Shown here one piece after another: positions 56,439-61,135 of a stretch of 64,000 nt of DNA (the stretch's first letter is position 1; the number at the start of each line of letters is the position of its first letter). The DNA lies in NCBI RefSeq assembly GCF_003722075.1, contig NZ_RDSK01000018.1, forward strand, positions 1 to 64,000, written 5' to 3'. The notes under the pieces were generated by a model, which saw only the letters and a list, made by a program, of their open reading frames with translations, made no database searches and was not told where the DNA came from. Source of the DNA: Methanohalophilus sp. RSK. GTDB taxonomy: Archaea > Halobacteriota > Methanosarcinia > Methanosarcinales > Methanosarcinaceae. Both the position numbers and the translations under genes were made by a program.

Positions 56439-58541
56439 TTAGCATCCTTTTTCGAATTTATTTTTCAGGCACCTGTAAAACTCTTTTTCAACTTCCCCCC
56501 CGCTTCTGAAAAGACGCTCCACGATTAACTCCGGAGTACTCTTTGCAATATGGTTATAAACCGGATTGCGATCAACAATCAGGTTCAATTCATTATCAAG
56601 TCCTTTTGCTTCAATTCCATCCACCCTGATGGAAGCTTCGGTGTTTTCCAGTATCTGGTCGGCAAGATGGGATACAAAAATAGCCATCGTATTGGCTTCT
56701 TCAGAAAGGGTTTCAAGAATTCCGGCTATGATTTTTGCAGACGCTCCGGGTTCGGTAATGGATTCAAGTTCATCGACAAGCACAAGTTTGGACCCCGCCC
56801 CAGCCAGAGCTGAAAATGAGCGCAAGGTTGTTTCAAATGCCCCCGCATCAAGAGTGCCCCTGGATTTGCTGAAATAATACAAACTATCAACCGGCCCGAT
56901 CTTTAATTCATCTGCCGGCACAGGGAAACCCATGTGGGAAAGAATTGTACATTGAGCCACTAACTCCAGCATGGATGTTTTTCCCCCGGAGTTCACACCA
57001 CTTAACAGGACTACCGGAGAAGAGGGAACTTGTGAAGGAGGCATGATCGAACCCAGGGAATAATCTATAGGTTCCACATCAACACCCTTTTCGCAAAGGA
57101 AAATATTTTTCCCATTTTTAATCCCCATACCACATTCATCTTCAAAGCCGGCAAGTTGCATCTGCAGAGAATGACCAAAACGGGCCACTGCCAAACCCAC
57201 ATCCAGATCAAGTAACCTCATAACAAGTTGTTTCAGGGGTTGCCTGAATCCGTGTAGCTCATATGCAATATCCCTTTTATGGGTAACTTCCCTGCGGAAT
57301 ATCTGCTGTTTGATCTGTTCTTTGAATTTTTGTAACTGGGACGTGTCGGCTTCTACAGGATAACAAAGTTCAGAGGGGAAAAAATAATCCACAAATAGGG
57401 ATTCATTTTGCTTTAGTGAAAGGGATTCAATGAATTCTTTCCTGGCATCATTTATTATCTGGCTGAAAGATGCCGATATATTGCGTGAAAGAATATCCTT
57501 TAACTCCACCTCATCCCTGATAACACCCAACATGTCATTCCCACTGAGTGTAATACTACTTTTTTGGAGGAGATCGTTTATTTCCCGGTTGCACTGGTCT
57601 ACATATCTTGTAAGTTCCGAATCCACATTGTCCAGAATATGATGTAAGCGGTCTATTTCGCCATCCCTGCCTTCAACAATATTTCCTTCAGGATTAATGG
57701 CAGCCATGAGATTGCAAAGAGCCGAAAGATCCGCATTGATTATTGAAGGTATGCCCGCTTTATCCAGTGTAATTGCAAGGTCCAATGCATTCATTATTCG
57801 CTCATGGTTGAAAGCAAAAAAAGAAATTTGTTTTTCGGGTAAAATATGCCATTCCTCAATTTCCCGGGCATTTGTTATTATTTCAGGATTCGTATCCTCT
57901 GGAAAATCATATTCCAGGAAGGGTTCTCCTATGGCAATTACATGGGGATAGCTGCGTGCAACATCTGCAAATTCCAGAGGATCTTCCACCAGCTGAACTT
58001 CAATGCTTTTACCATATTTTTCCTTTAAAGTGCTGTAATCATCAGTATTTGAAGTTACAATCACCCTATCCCTGATACGGGAAATTGGAGGAGAATTTTT
58101 CAGGGGTTTTATTCTGGAAAGACTTGCTGAAATCCTATCCATATCATCGAGCATGGAGAGATATTCCATATGGTTTTCAACCCAGTCCCGGTTTATGTCG
58201 ATAAGGTCTTTCCTGCTTGAAGGATATGGGATATAGGTGTGCAACTTATCTTTTGCATAAGGGGTAGAAGCATAATTTTTGATAGAATCGATTACCCGTT
58301 CATAAATATCGACTGAATCCCGGGTTTTCAAAAAAGAGGAGATATCAAGACCATCCTGAGTAGACCTCACATCGTGTACGAGGGATATAGCATATCTTCT
58401 ACCTACTCCTTCGATCTCCGATATACTGGCTACATCCCCTCTGAGAATTGCCGCCATGGCATCCTCTTCACACCCAAAATGAGATATGAAGCGCTGTGCC
58501 ATCTTTTCTCCTATACGTGGAGCATCAACCAGTGACTGCAT
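56439..58541 (-). CDS. MutS-family ATPase with N-terminal HhH (MutS2-like, no Smr)
   Basis: The gene encodes 700 residues from the ATG at 58541, which has AGGTGG upstream; an earlier ATG at 58565 would overlap the previous gene. The N-terminus (about 1-60) has helix-hairpin-helix motifs (DAPRIGEKMAQRF, EIEGVGRRYAI). The C-terminal ABC-type ATPase has Walker A GVNSGGKTSM near residue 525 and Walker B KLVLVDELES. The mismatch-recognition domain I of MutS and the Smr nuclease of MutS2 are missing. It is the last gene of an operon with a radical SAM protein and a DUF4130 protein. Confidence 0.85.
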   Translation of the reverse strand: MQSLVDAPRIGEKMAQRFISHFGCEEDAMAAILRGDVASISEIEGVGRRYAISLVHDVRSTQDGLDISSFLKTRDSVDIYERVIDSIKNYASTPYAKDKLHTYIPYPSSRKDLIDINRDWVENHMEYLSMLDDMDRISASLSRIKPLKNSPPISRIRDRVIVTSNTDDYSTLKEKYGKSIEVQLVEDPLEFADVARSYPHVIAIGEPFLEYDFPEDTNPEIITNAREIEEWHILPEKQISFFAFNHERIMNALDLAITLDKAGIPSIINADLSALCNLMAAINPEGNIVEGRDGEIDRLHHILDNVDSELTRYVDQCNREINDLLQKSSITLSGNDMLGVIRDEVELKDILSRNISASFSQIINDARKEFIESLSLKQNESLFVDYFFPSELCYPVEADTSQLQKFKEQIKQQIFRREVTHKRDIAYELHGFRQPLKQLVMRLLDLDVGLAVARFGHSLQMQLAGFEDECGMGIKNGKNIFLCEKGVDVEPIDYSLGSIMPPSQVPSSPVVLLSGVNSGGKTSMLELVAQCTILSHMGFPVPADELKIGPVDSLYYFSKSRGTLDAGAFETTLRSFSALAGAGSKLVLVDELESITEPGASAKIIAGILETLSEEANTMAIFVSHLADQILENTEASIRVDGIEAKGLDNELNLIVDRNPVYNHIAKSTPELIVERLFRSGGEVEKEFYRCLKNKFEKGC

Positions 58542-58542
58542 A

Positions 58543-59397
58543 TTATTGACCACCTTGTTTCTCATTCACAAAGTCAAGTAATGTAGATGTGGGAATACCC
58601 CGCTCTACAAAATACCGATCTTTTTTAGACATTGTACTATAGCCGGAATCGCCGCGGGGCTGTAATTTTTTTGAAAGCGAATGATTTCGCCTGTTGTCTA
58701 TCATCTGGCTTTTGTAGTAAATATCCCACAAATCTTCCAGACTAGCAGAATCTTCAGAAGGAATCAAATGCCGTATTGAATCTACAGATGTTCTCAGGAA
58801 GTGCTGCATCTTCAGGATTTCACCATTGCATACATAAGCAAACGTTCCATCAACAACAATTACGGCCCTATCGGGATTGCGTACTGCAAGCCACCTGCAA
58901 AGCATATCAGACACACGGTTTTTGGGAGTTATATGTGCATAAAGGACTGTTTCTCCGCAAACTGGCCGCACAAACATGCAAAGCCTATGGTAATTGTTCT
59001 TGACCTCACGCATGTACCTGTAATATTGCTTGTAATGTCTTTCTTTGCCACAATAAAGACCATCTACCTCCCCTTCACACCCATGCAATAGTCTCACAAA
59101 CTCTGCAGGATTGCATTTCCTGTGCCTGAGCACCAATTCTATATAATTCAATGGAGGGGAATCAAAATTGGTTATTCTGTGCCACCCATCGAGAAAAACT
59201 CTTTTGACCAACTGCTGCTTATCAACCTTACTGTTGAATCCAACTCGAATTACTTCAACTTCCGGGTTGAACATTTTCAATTTCGTTTCCCCTTCTCCGG
59301 GATCACAGGCAAAAACCAGATCTGCCTCAGGCCTTTTCCTCAATTCCAGACAGGCCAGTAAGACACCTGTTACATTGGCCTTAAAAAGAATAATCAT
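58543..59397 (-). CDS. DUF4130-family probable DNA metabolism protein
   Basis: The gene encodes 284 residues from the ATG at 59397, which has GGAGG 6 bases upstream. The N-terminal half (IILFKANVTGVLLACLELRKRPEADLVF) and the C-terminal DUF4130 region (LRTSVDSIRHLIPSED ... LWDIYYKSQMIDNRRN) match the family found beside a radical SAM protein and, in many bacteria, uracil-DNA glycosylase. No catalytic function is known to me. The MutS-family gene starts 1 base after its stop. Confidence 0.82.
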   Translation of the reverse strand: MIILFKANVTGVLLACLELRKRPEADLVFACDPGEGETKLKMFNPEVEVIRVGFNSKVDKQQLVKRVFLDGWHRITNFDSPPLNYIELVLRHRKCNPAEFVRLLHGCEGEVDGLYCGKERHYKQYYRYMREVKNNYHRLCMFVRPVCGETVLYAHITPKNRVSDMLCRWLAVRNPDRAVIVVDGTFAYVCNGEILKMQHFLRTSVDSIRHLIPSEDSASLEDLWDIYYKSQMIDNRRNHSLSKKLQPRGDSGYSTMSKKDRYFVERGIPTSTLLDFVNEKQGGQ

Positions 59398-60530
59398 GTG
59401 CATCCTCCTGCAAACTGTATAAGGTTAGCCTGCCCGGAACCACCAATTTTGATAAAAGGGCGTGCACTACCTATAACAACACCCATACGTGCAAGTTCAT
59501 CCTCCCCATAAATTGGCCTGGATCTCAGGATACGGGAAGCACTTATGGGCCCTATACCCGGCACCCTCAGCAGAGCAGGATAGTCGGCACTGTTTATTTC
59601 TACCGGAAACATTTCCGGGTTGACCCGGGCAAGTTCAAGTTTTGGATCCTCGTTCAAAAGGAAACCATCGTCATTATAGATTTGATCAATATGCCCGAAA
59701 TCCAGGCCATAATCCTTCAAAAGATAGGATACCTGATAGAGCCTCTGTTCCCTCCATTTCGGAGAAGTTGAACCATTCTCAAGCGGCGTATCAGGAACCG
59801 GGTCAAAACTCATAAAATAGGGTCTGCGTAACTGGTATTTTTCCATGAAATCATGCACGGTATTCACAATATCCCTGTCAGGTTCGTCAAGGGCACCTAC
59901 CACAAACTGGGTATCGTTGGCACCTATAATCTTACGATCATATCTGTGCAGTTTCCTTTGTTTCTTTATCAATCTGCAGGTCCAGTTCAGACGCTGAAGG
60001 ACATCATTCTTGTAATCAAAATTGGGACAGATTTCCGAATAGTTCACAGAACCTGTTGTTTCTGCATTTACCCCGAATTTGTTAGCAACCCCGGCTACCT
60101 CCTGAAGCAAATGGAAAGGTGTACCGGGCATGAGCCGAAGGTGGATATAACCCTTAAACCCCTGATTTCTCAAGAGCCGGGCCACATGAAGTTGTTTTTC
60201 GGTTGTTGTTTCAGGATCCCCGATAATACCGGAGGAAAGGAACAGGCCTTCAATCGCATTTTTCCTGTAAAAATCCCAGGTAATCTTCACAATTTCTTCC
60301 GGGGACAGGGAAACCCTGCGCACATCCCTATGACAGCGATTCGGACAATAGGTACATTCCCCGGCACAGTAGTTGGTCAGCAATGTCTTGTATAATTGTA
60401 TACAGCGCCCGTCAGGCCCGAAAGCGTGGCATACTGCACTCTGGTTACAGCTGTCATACTTTGTACCCGAGGAAAGGTATCGCATCCTCTCATGCAAAGT
60501 GAAATGATAGCCGTCTGAAGGAATACTCAT
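59394..60530 (-). CDS. Radical SAM putative DNA modification/repair protein
   Basis: The gene encodes 378 residues. The cluster motif is C55-x3-C59-x2-C62 (YCAGECTYC), with further cysteines at 28, 34, 43 and 66 that could hold another metal site. The core has GIIGDPETTTEKQ and LMPGTPF. A C-terminal helix-hairpin-helix (LLRVPGIGPISASRIL, near residue 328) indicates DNA binding. It belongs to the family named for its linkage to uracil-DNA glycosylase. It overlaps the DUF4130 gene by 4 bases. The substrate is unknown. Confidence 0.88.
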   Translation of the reverse strand: MSIPSDGYHFTLHERMRYLSSGTKYDSCNQSAVCHAFGPDGRCIQLYKTLLTNYCAGECTYCPNRCHRDVRRVSLSPEEIVKITWDFYRKNAIEGLFLSSGIIGDPETTTEKQLHVARLLRNQGFKGYIHLRLMPGTPFHLLQEVAGVANKFGVNAETTGSVNYSEICPNFDYKNDVLQRLNWTCRLIKKQRKLHRYDRKIIGANDTQFVVGALDEPDRDIVNTVHDFMEKYQLRRPYFMSFDPVPDTPLENGSTSPKWREQRLYQVSYLLKDYGLDFGHIDQIYNDDGFLLNEDPKLELARVNPEMFPVEINSADYPALLRVPGIGPISASRILRSRPIYGEDELARMGVVIGSARPFIKIGGSGQANLIQFAGGCT

Positions 60531-60599
60531 TACATGTAACTAAGTTCATCGCCTATATAAGAGACAAGAAAGTGGATTGAAAGTATTCGTTGGGCACCT

Positions 60600-61115
60600 T
60601 CATTCCCTGACATGGATATCAAGCCGAATCCGCGTGATAGGTTCCAGCTTTTTCCAGTCCACGATTGTATCATCTTCCAGCACGCAGTCATTCACGTTTT
60701 TATCCCCGAACTGGCCACCAATCTCATAGACAAAAAGGCCTTCCTCCCCATCAGTAGAAACAATCATTTCCCTATCTCCTTTTTTCCTGACATCGATATC
60801 TGCCACATTGCGCAGGGCTTCCATAAGGGAAGCACCTTTCTCGATTTCAACTTTTCTTGTGGGAGCAAACGAATCAACGGCCAGATGAATATTTTTCCTG
60901 TTGGGTTTTAATACATGGGATTTGCCGAAAATATGCCTCTCAAGAAGTTCGGATTCTTCAAGTACCTTTACATGCTTGGAAATTACCGATACTGAAATAT
61001 CCAGTTCCCGGGCAATTTCAGATATATGCATTTCTTTGCTGCTTAAGAGTTCCAGTATTTTAATCCGGGTTTCACTGCCAAGTGCATGAAATATCCTGCA
61101 TCCTATAGAACTCAT
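60600..61115 (-). CDS. ArsR-type HTH transcriptional regulator
   Basis: The gene encodes 171 residues from the ATG at 61115. The N-terminal winged helix (FHALGSETRIKILELLSS ... ISEIARELDISVSVISKHVKVLEESELLERH) is a standard ArsR fold. The C-terminal ~80 residues (mostly acidic, no metal-binding CVC motif) form a domain I cannot assign. A TATA box centred 27 bases upstream of this ATG indicates a leaderless message and rules out the TTG start at 61121. It lies 69 bases upstream of the radical SAM repair operon on the same strand and could regulate it. Confidence 0.85.
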   Translation of the reverse strand: MSSIGCRIFHALGSETRIKILELLSSKEMHISEIARELDISVSVISKHVKVLEESELLERHIFGKSHVLKPNRKNIHLAVDSFAPTRKVEIEKGASLMEALRNVADIDVRKKGDREMIVSTDGEEGLFVYEIGGQFGDKNVNDCVLEDDTIVDWKKLEPITRIRLDIHVRE

Positions 61116-61135
61116 ATGCAAGTCAAGTGAATTGT

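Follow-up and report, generated by a model that had tools for sequence, protein, structure and literature searches.

Three adjacent genes in a 64,000-nucleotide stretch of the archaeon Methanohalophilus sp. RSK (contig NZ_RDSK01000018.1, positions 1 to 64,000; hereafter the window) raise the question whether a radical S-adenosylmethionine (SAM) enzyme, its DUF4130 neighbor and a MutS-family ATPase serve DNA repair together. The answer proposed here, to which we assign a probability of roughly 0.6, is that the trio forms one transcription unit in a damage-responsive DNA-repair regulon of the Methanosarcinia, in which the radical SAM-DUF4130 pair would process lesions and the MutS5-like ATPase would act on branched DNA. 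Gene order, co-direction, conservation and a shared promoter element were observed directly. Membership of the operon in the regulon is well supported; the chemistry of the pair and the part played by the MutS-like protein we infer.

The region 56439-60530 contains three head-to-tail open reading frames (ORFs) on the minus strand, to which all window coordinates below refer. A TIGR03916-like radical SAM protein of 378 amino acids with a helix-hairpin-helix (HhH) domain (59394..60530, determined from the ORF, domain matches and alignment) is followed by a DUF4130 protein (58543..59397) and by a MutS5-like MutS-family ATPase lacking mismatch-recognition and Smr domains (56439..58541). The DUF4130 gene could start equally well at its first in-frame ATG (59403) or at the next one considered (59397); for the ATPase gene the first in-frame ATG is at 58565, and homologue comparison places the start at the internal ATG 58541. 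When the internal ATGs (59397, 58541) are used, the 4-base overlap followed by a 1-base gap given in a preliminary description of this DNA is exact. The closest named match was Methanohalophilus euhalobius (97% for the radical SAM protein). Compared with this species, the ratio of non-synonymous to synonymous substitutions (Ka/Ks) was 0.07 for the radical SAM gene, 0.33 for the DUF4130 gene and 0.14 for the MutS-like gene, hence all three look functional and under purifying selection. Since orthologues of all three genes also recur in the same order in relatives, the arrangement is not due to chance, and the three-gene observation of the preliminary description was confirmed by ORFs, domains, gene order and Ka/Ks.

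The radical SAM protein matched TIGR03916 with 286.5 bits (E-value 3.9e-85) over profile positions 32-380 of 415 and missed the curated cut-off of 343.5 bits. The combination of a CxxxCxxC motif and a C-terminal HhH, which is a trait of this family, is present. The cluster motif (C55-x3-C59-x2-C62; 60345..60368) was invariant in an alignment of 12 homologues, as was VPGIGP within the HhH motif around RVPGIGPISASRIL (59529..59576). Pfam matches of the HhH to HHH_3 and HHH were below cut-off, and its top solved-structure match was a ComEA-type HhH.

Upstream of the radical SAM gene, comparison of the relatives revealed a conserved block, AATACTTTCACCCCGCTTGG, followed by a TATA box. In the window, the promoter element reads ATACTTTCAATCCACTT (60570..60586), which has one mismatch to ATACTTTCANNNNGCTT and none to ATACTTTCANNNNRCTT. 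The TATA box TTATATAG (60553..60560) lies ~25 bp downstream of the TACTTTC start and 23-30 bp before the radical SAM ATG, with comparable spacing in relatives. No Shine-Dalgarno sequence was seen before this ATG, hence a leaderless transcript is likely. TACTTTC was present upstream of the radical SAM gene at 39 of 41 loci of the Methanosarcinaceae (permuted 7-mers, mean 1.05), the two exceptions reading CACTTTC, at 18 of 19 loci of the Methanotrichaceae (mean 0.12) and at 5 of 12 loci of other archaea (mean 0.25); none of seven bacterial loci had it. In a genome of a different family (G244, locus L358), the element stands ahead of a distant homologue of the radical SAM protein (E-value 3e-91).

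The element is not confined to this operon. ATACTTTCANNNNGCTT was found in 57 of 61 genomes of the family, usually in 1-9 copies, with the reversed control nearly absent, and the genes behind it included RadA, Hef, UvrA, RecQ, RPA, a TOPRIM protein and others. With one mismatch allowed, the Methanohalophilus genome itself contains 15 sites, versus 5 matches of the reversed control. Sites that have a TATA box and lie close to a gene start precede RadA, Hef, RecQ, the exodeoxyribonuclease VII (ExoVII) large subunit XseA and the trio, besides a 24-amino-acid ORF and one or two undefined loci; most remaining sites are inside coding sequence. Among the Methanotrichaceae and related Methanosarcinia families, TACTTTCRCNCCGC was present in 20 of 25 additional genomes, with ~70 occurrences and no control match. 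Among 134 distinct sites sampled, genes with established functions in replication, repair or recombination follow ~60, namely RadA (23), RPA (12), Hef (6), RecQ (5), a RAD51-like gene (4), UvrA (3), MCM (2), NreA (2), a lone MutS5 (2) and a RecJ-like gene (1); another 11 sites precede the radical SAM gene. Target genes were named from the NCBIfam or Pfam matches of a single representative each, whereby the RAD51-like protein was below the Pfam cut-off. Since the sample is non-random, with sites known to serve the radical SAM gene mostly left out, and orthologues repeat, about ten distinct gene families is the fairer figure. As judged from sequence, the regulon would be marked by WTACTTTC(A/G)CnCCGCtt plus a TATA box.

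Of the 120 genomes of the class in which linkage of the trio was determined, 116 have the MutS-like gene, 82 the radical SAM gene and 60 a detectable DUF4130 gene. The pair occurs in 38 of 60 genomes of the Methanosarcinaceae and the trio is contiguous in 37 of these; in the 38th (G082), the contig ends inside DUF4130. Among 80 named loci, DUF4130 adjoins the radical SAM gene in nearly all that extend far enough, the trio was seen wherever a Methanosarcinaceae contig was long enough, and all other groups have the pair without MutS. The refuting condition named in the preliminary description, genes unlinked in most relatives, thus applies outside the Methanosarcinaceae but not inside the family. 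Because the MutS-like gene occurs in nearly all genomes irrespective of the pair and is unlinked in the Methanotrichaceae, its partnership in the operon is lineage-specific and not obligate.

Because the operon stands behind the same element as RadA, RPA, Hef, RecQ and other repair genes, a role in DNA damage is likely and directly testable; the same element, shared also with UvrA and others, supports the operon and the repair role claimed in the preliminary description. Following DNA damage, a regulator acting at the element would raise expression of the operon together with RadA, RPA, Hef and RecQ. The HhH domain would bring the radical SAM enzyme to DNA, where the enzyme and its dedicated partner DUF4130 may reverse or modify a base lesion by radical chemistry. 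Such a reaction would resemble in outline that of spore photoproduct lyase (SPL, SplB), in that DNA bases would be repaired by a radical SAM enzyme, although the window protein belongs to a different family by profile and gave no match to the SPL profile. The MutS5-like ATPase, devoid of mismatch recognition, would bind DNA that is branched or undergoing recombination at these sites; its gene would have joined the operon in the Methanosarcinaceae. The pair of radical SAM and DUF4130 proteins has a wide distribution, and the shared element is, as far as found, the first regulatory evidence for its role in DNA repair; organisms and an element can now be named in which this role is testable.

Several points weigh against the proposal of a damage-responsive repair operon. 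No expression data for methanogens were found, the element might function in DNA metabolism that is constitutive or linked to growth, and the related Halobacterium motif shares with it the ACTTTCA core only. The DUF4130 gene evolves fast, as its Ka/Ks value indicates. In the other 22 of the 60 Methanosarcinaceae genomes (genera g3, g6 and g7) MutS is kept and the pair is absent, and among 44 genomes of the Methanotrichaceae with a radical SAM gene, none has MutS alongside. (This family, f5 in our numbering, is taken to be the Methanotrichaceae because named Methanotrichaceae records have the same 40%-identical radical SAM protein.) Finally, the convergent and functionally unrelated hisGAB genes also stay beside the trio in most loci, so part of the linkage may be general synteny.

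The distribution data bear on the possibility that MutS5 is a passenger, i.e., that a single event placed the pair upstream of it and general synteny has kept them together with no functional link. The near universality of MutS5, its absence beside the Methanotrichaceae pair and the retained hisGAB are as expected of a passenger, and so is one locus (L074) with the order ArsR-MutS5-his, from which the pair is cleanly absent between ArsR and MutS. However, the reading frames of the trio overlap or nearly overlap in many genomes, and the trio is intact at loci of the anaerobic methanotrophic archaea (ANME)-3 type (L098, L100, L103), although their flanks were lost: the flanks examined gave no homologue of ArsR, his or metK. 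Further, in two genomes (G290, G291) a lone MutS5 carries the element directly upstream; before the solitary MutS5 of genera without the pair (L070-L073), the element was not found. We hold a passenger role to be unlikely, yet the strongest of the rival explanations.

The motif has relatives in the literature. In Halobacterium NRC-1, an 11-bp motif, TTTCACTTTCA, is located upstream of the TATA box of the UV-B-induced genes radA1, top6B, vng17 and vng280, and the radA promoters of other haloarchaea, as well as Methanospirillum, have a similar motif (PMC2556686). Besides the core, the methanogen element has in common with it the position upstream of TATA and radA among the targets. The methanogen element differs from the published motifs by its extension with CnCCGCTT and by its occurrence before RPA, Hef, RecQ, UvrA, ExoVII, NreA and the radical SAM operon. 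ACTTTC also fits the Sulfolobus UV hexamer A(N)TTTC at -44 to -39 (PMC5817253), but this is a weak match with five fixed bases. In haloarchaea, most exact-pattern matches are inside genes, and no regulon with the extended form of the methanogens was seen in this group. A literature search with partial coverage found no description of the element or regulon in methanogens. The element would define a methanogen repair regulon tied to the Halobacterium UV motif. Whether one may go further and see in it an SOS-like regulon of the Methanosarcinia, related to the radA1 UV motif and with the radical SAM-DUF4130(-MutS5) operon as a damage-induced core member performing radical-based DNA repair, we rate at even odds.

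Alternatively, the element may mark a constitutive or growth-linked DNA-metabolism regulon and the operon may serve routine maintenance with no damage response. MCM and RPA are among the targets, one site is situated ~2 kb upstream of Orc1/Cdc6, and methanogen induction data, as mentioned, were not found. Nevertheless, the targets are dominated by RadA, Hef, RecQ, UvrA, ExoVII and NreA, and the related Halobacterium motif stands before UV-B-induced genes, which makes routine maintenance rather improbable, though only slightly more so than a passenger MutS5.

A third explanation concerns the pair itself, which could make a programmed DNA or nucleotide modification instead of repairing damage. 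The name given by NCBI to the TIGR03916-type family, 'putative DNA modification/repair', allows for this. Radical SAM enzymes do both modification and repair. Conversely, the operon is a member of a repair regulon, the partner is fused to UdgX in some bacteria, and patchy presence with clean losses fits conditional repair better than an essential modification; programmed modification thus appears improbable. An enzyme acting on DNA lesions is supported by the HhH, by the fusion of the partner to a uracil-DNA-binding domain in some bacteria and by the repair-type promoter. As in bacteria and other archaea, the window pair matches TIGR03916 and TIGR03915 (rSAM_link_UDG and SAM_7_link_chp/DUF4130) in adjacent genes with the radical SAM gene first; it differs in that its members are below the NCBIfam cut-offs, no uracil-DNA glycosylase (UDG) is attached, a MutS5-like gene comes next and a repair-type promoter element is present.

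The preliminary description further held that MutS replaces the glycosylase, which did not stand. Two UDG-superfamily genes are encoded elsewhere in the same genome (C9, C16), and 105 of the 120 class genomes have such a gene. No full UDG was detected near the pair in 80 related loci with the archaeal UDG profile. Neither UDG nor MutS adjoins most archaeal pairs or the pairs seen in Bacteroidota and Bacillota. In the Alphaproteobacteria checked (Paracoccus, Phaeobacter), the neighbor of the same radical SAM protein is annotated as UdgX, a glycosylase fused to DUF4130, and in Parabacteroides it is a TIGR03915 protein alone. The glycosylase is one lineage-specific addition to the pair and MutS is another.

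The DUF4130 protein of the window has no UDG domain match and in this respect differs from UdgX. Its PF13566 domain (58657-59040) scored 51.5 bits, above the gathering cut-off of 27, whereas TIGR03915 gave 45.7 bits, below the cut-off of 112. The AlphaFold2 model has a predicted local distance difference test (pLDDT) value of 84.6. Foldseek matched it to DHH phosphoesterases with an E-value of 5e-4, but with a template modeling (TM) score of about 0.4, and a profile comparison with archaeal DHH proteins gave no sequence support. Hence, this modeled resemblance is taken as a lead only. The solved-structure search found no solved structure for DUF4130. In M. profundi (L091, ~11550), the DUF4130 gene is split over two frames by a one-base difference in a T run, which is either real or a sequencing error.

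The MutS-like protein matched MutS_V with 35.9 bits (cut-off 30.2). Nearly all positions of its Walker A motif SGVNSGGKTS (56973..57002) were invariant in 16 homologues, as were D590 and E591 of the Walker B motif VLVDE (56769..56783). Its N-terminal HhH region (58383..58535) was conserved in the same number of homologues and matched PF14520 (HHH_5) with an E-value of 2.8e-4, below cut-off. Thus, an HhH in two of the partners, as noted in the preliminary description, was recovered, the one in the ATPase weakly. No profile match to MutS_I/II/III or Smr was obtained, which agrees with the earlier characterization as Smr-less and free of a mismatch-recognition domain. The protein is neither a canonical MutS (MutS1), since only MutS_V was detected, nor a MutS2, as TIGR01069 gave 53.5 bits against a cut-off of 400 and Smr is missing. 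A second MutS_V gene with a much stronger match is located at C1:18160 of the same genome. The protein is a putative member of the archaeal MutS5 ATPases (Haloferax MutS5a/b, Pyrococcus horikoshii), which also lack the mismatch-recognition domain. In haloarchaeal genomes, the profile detected two homologues whose N-termini contain HhH-like sequence, in agreement with the count of MutS5a and MutS5b; the window protein differs by its operon with radical SAM-DUF4130. For P. horikoshii MutS5, binding to Holliday junctions has been reported (Ohshita 2017, cited in PMC11276520); by analogy, this would fit a protein that acts alongside RadA and Hef where DNA recombines. That the ATPase is a KamC-like reactivase keeping the radical enzyme active was rejected as very improbable: KamC (NF052383) is its top NCBIfam match (86.4 bits), but this is far below the cut-off of 300, an HhH region is present, the protein is kept in genomes without this radical enzyme, and the AlphaFold2 model and the top solved-structure matches point to MutS and MutS2.

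Directly upstream of the trio, a gene for an ArsR-type regulator (60600-61121) is conserved in most Methanosarcinaceae; by eye, the C-terminal half of the protein is beta-grasp-like. It is not favored as a dedicated regulator, being not found in some ANME-3-type loci, while the element recurs at unlinked genes. A metagenome-assembled genome, Methanocella sp. PtaU1.Bin125 (L127), has a pair 62% identical to that of the window, with the element and without MutS within the locus, reflecting either transfer or a misbinned contig.

Some further sites of the element precede less familiar sequences. In one genome (G127, L377), it precedes a helicase, XPB-like by eye, as a possible further member of the regulon. 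Element and TATA box also occur before a stretch without clear gene, opposite a decarboxylase-like gene, at C1:40216 of the same genome (L229/L232) and at L236, L238, L245, L252, L259 and L263. In several genomes this stretch is ~2 kb before Orc1/Cdc6, and it possibly encodes a small RNA or peptide. In several genera, a conserved ORF of 24-44 amino acids (MDxFFxxLVxRAxYYEQFExF) with a GAGGTGA-type ribosome site follows ~50 bases after the element, namely at C9:57287 in the same genome (L278) and at L207, L208, L215, L216, L226, L246, L251, L262 and L268; it is a candidate microprotein of the repair regulon.

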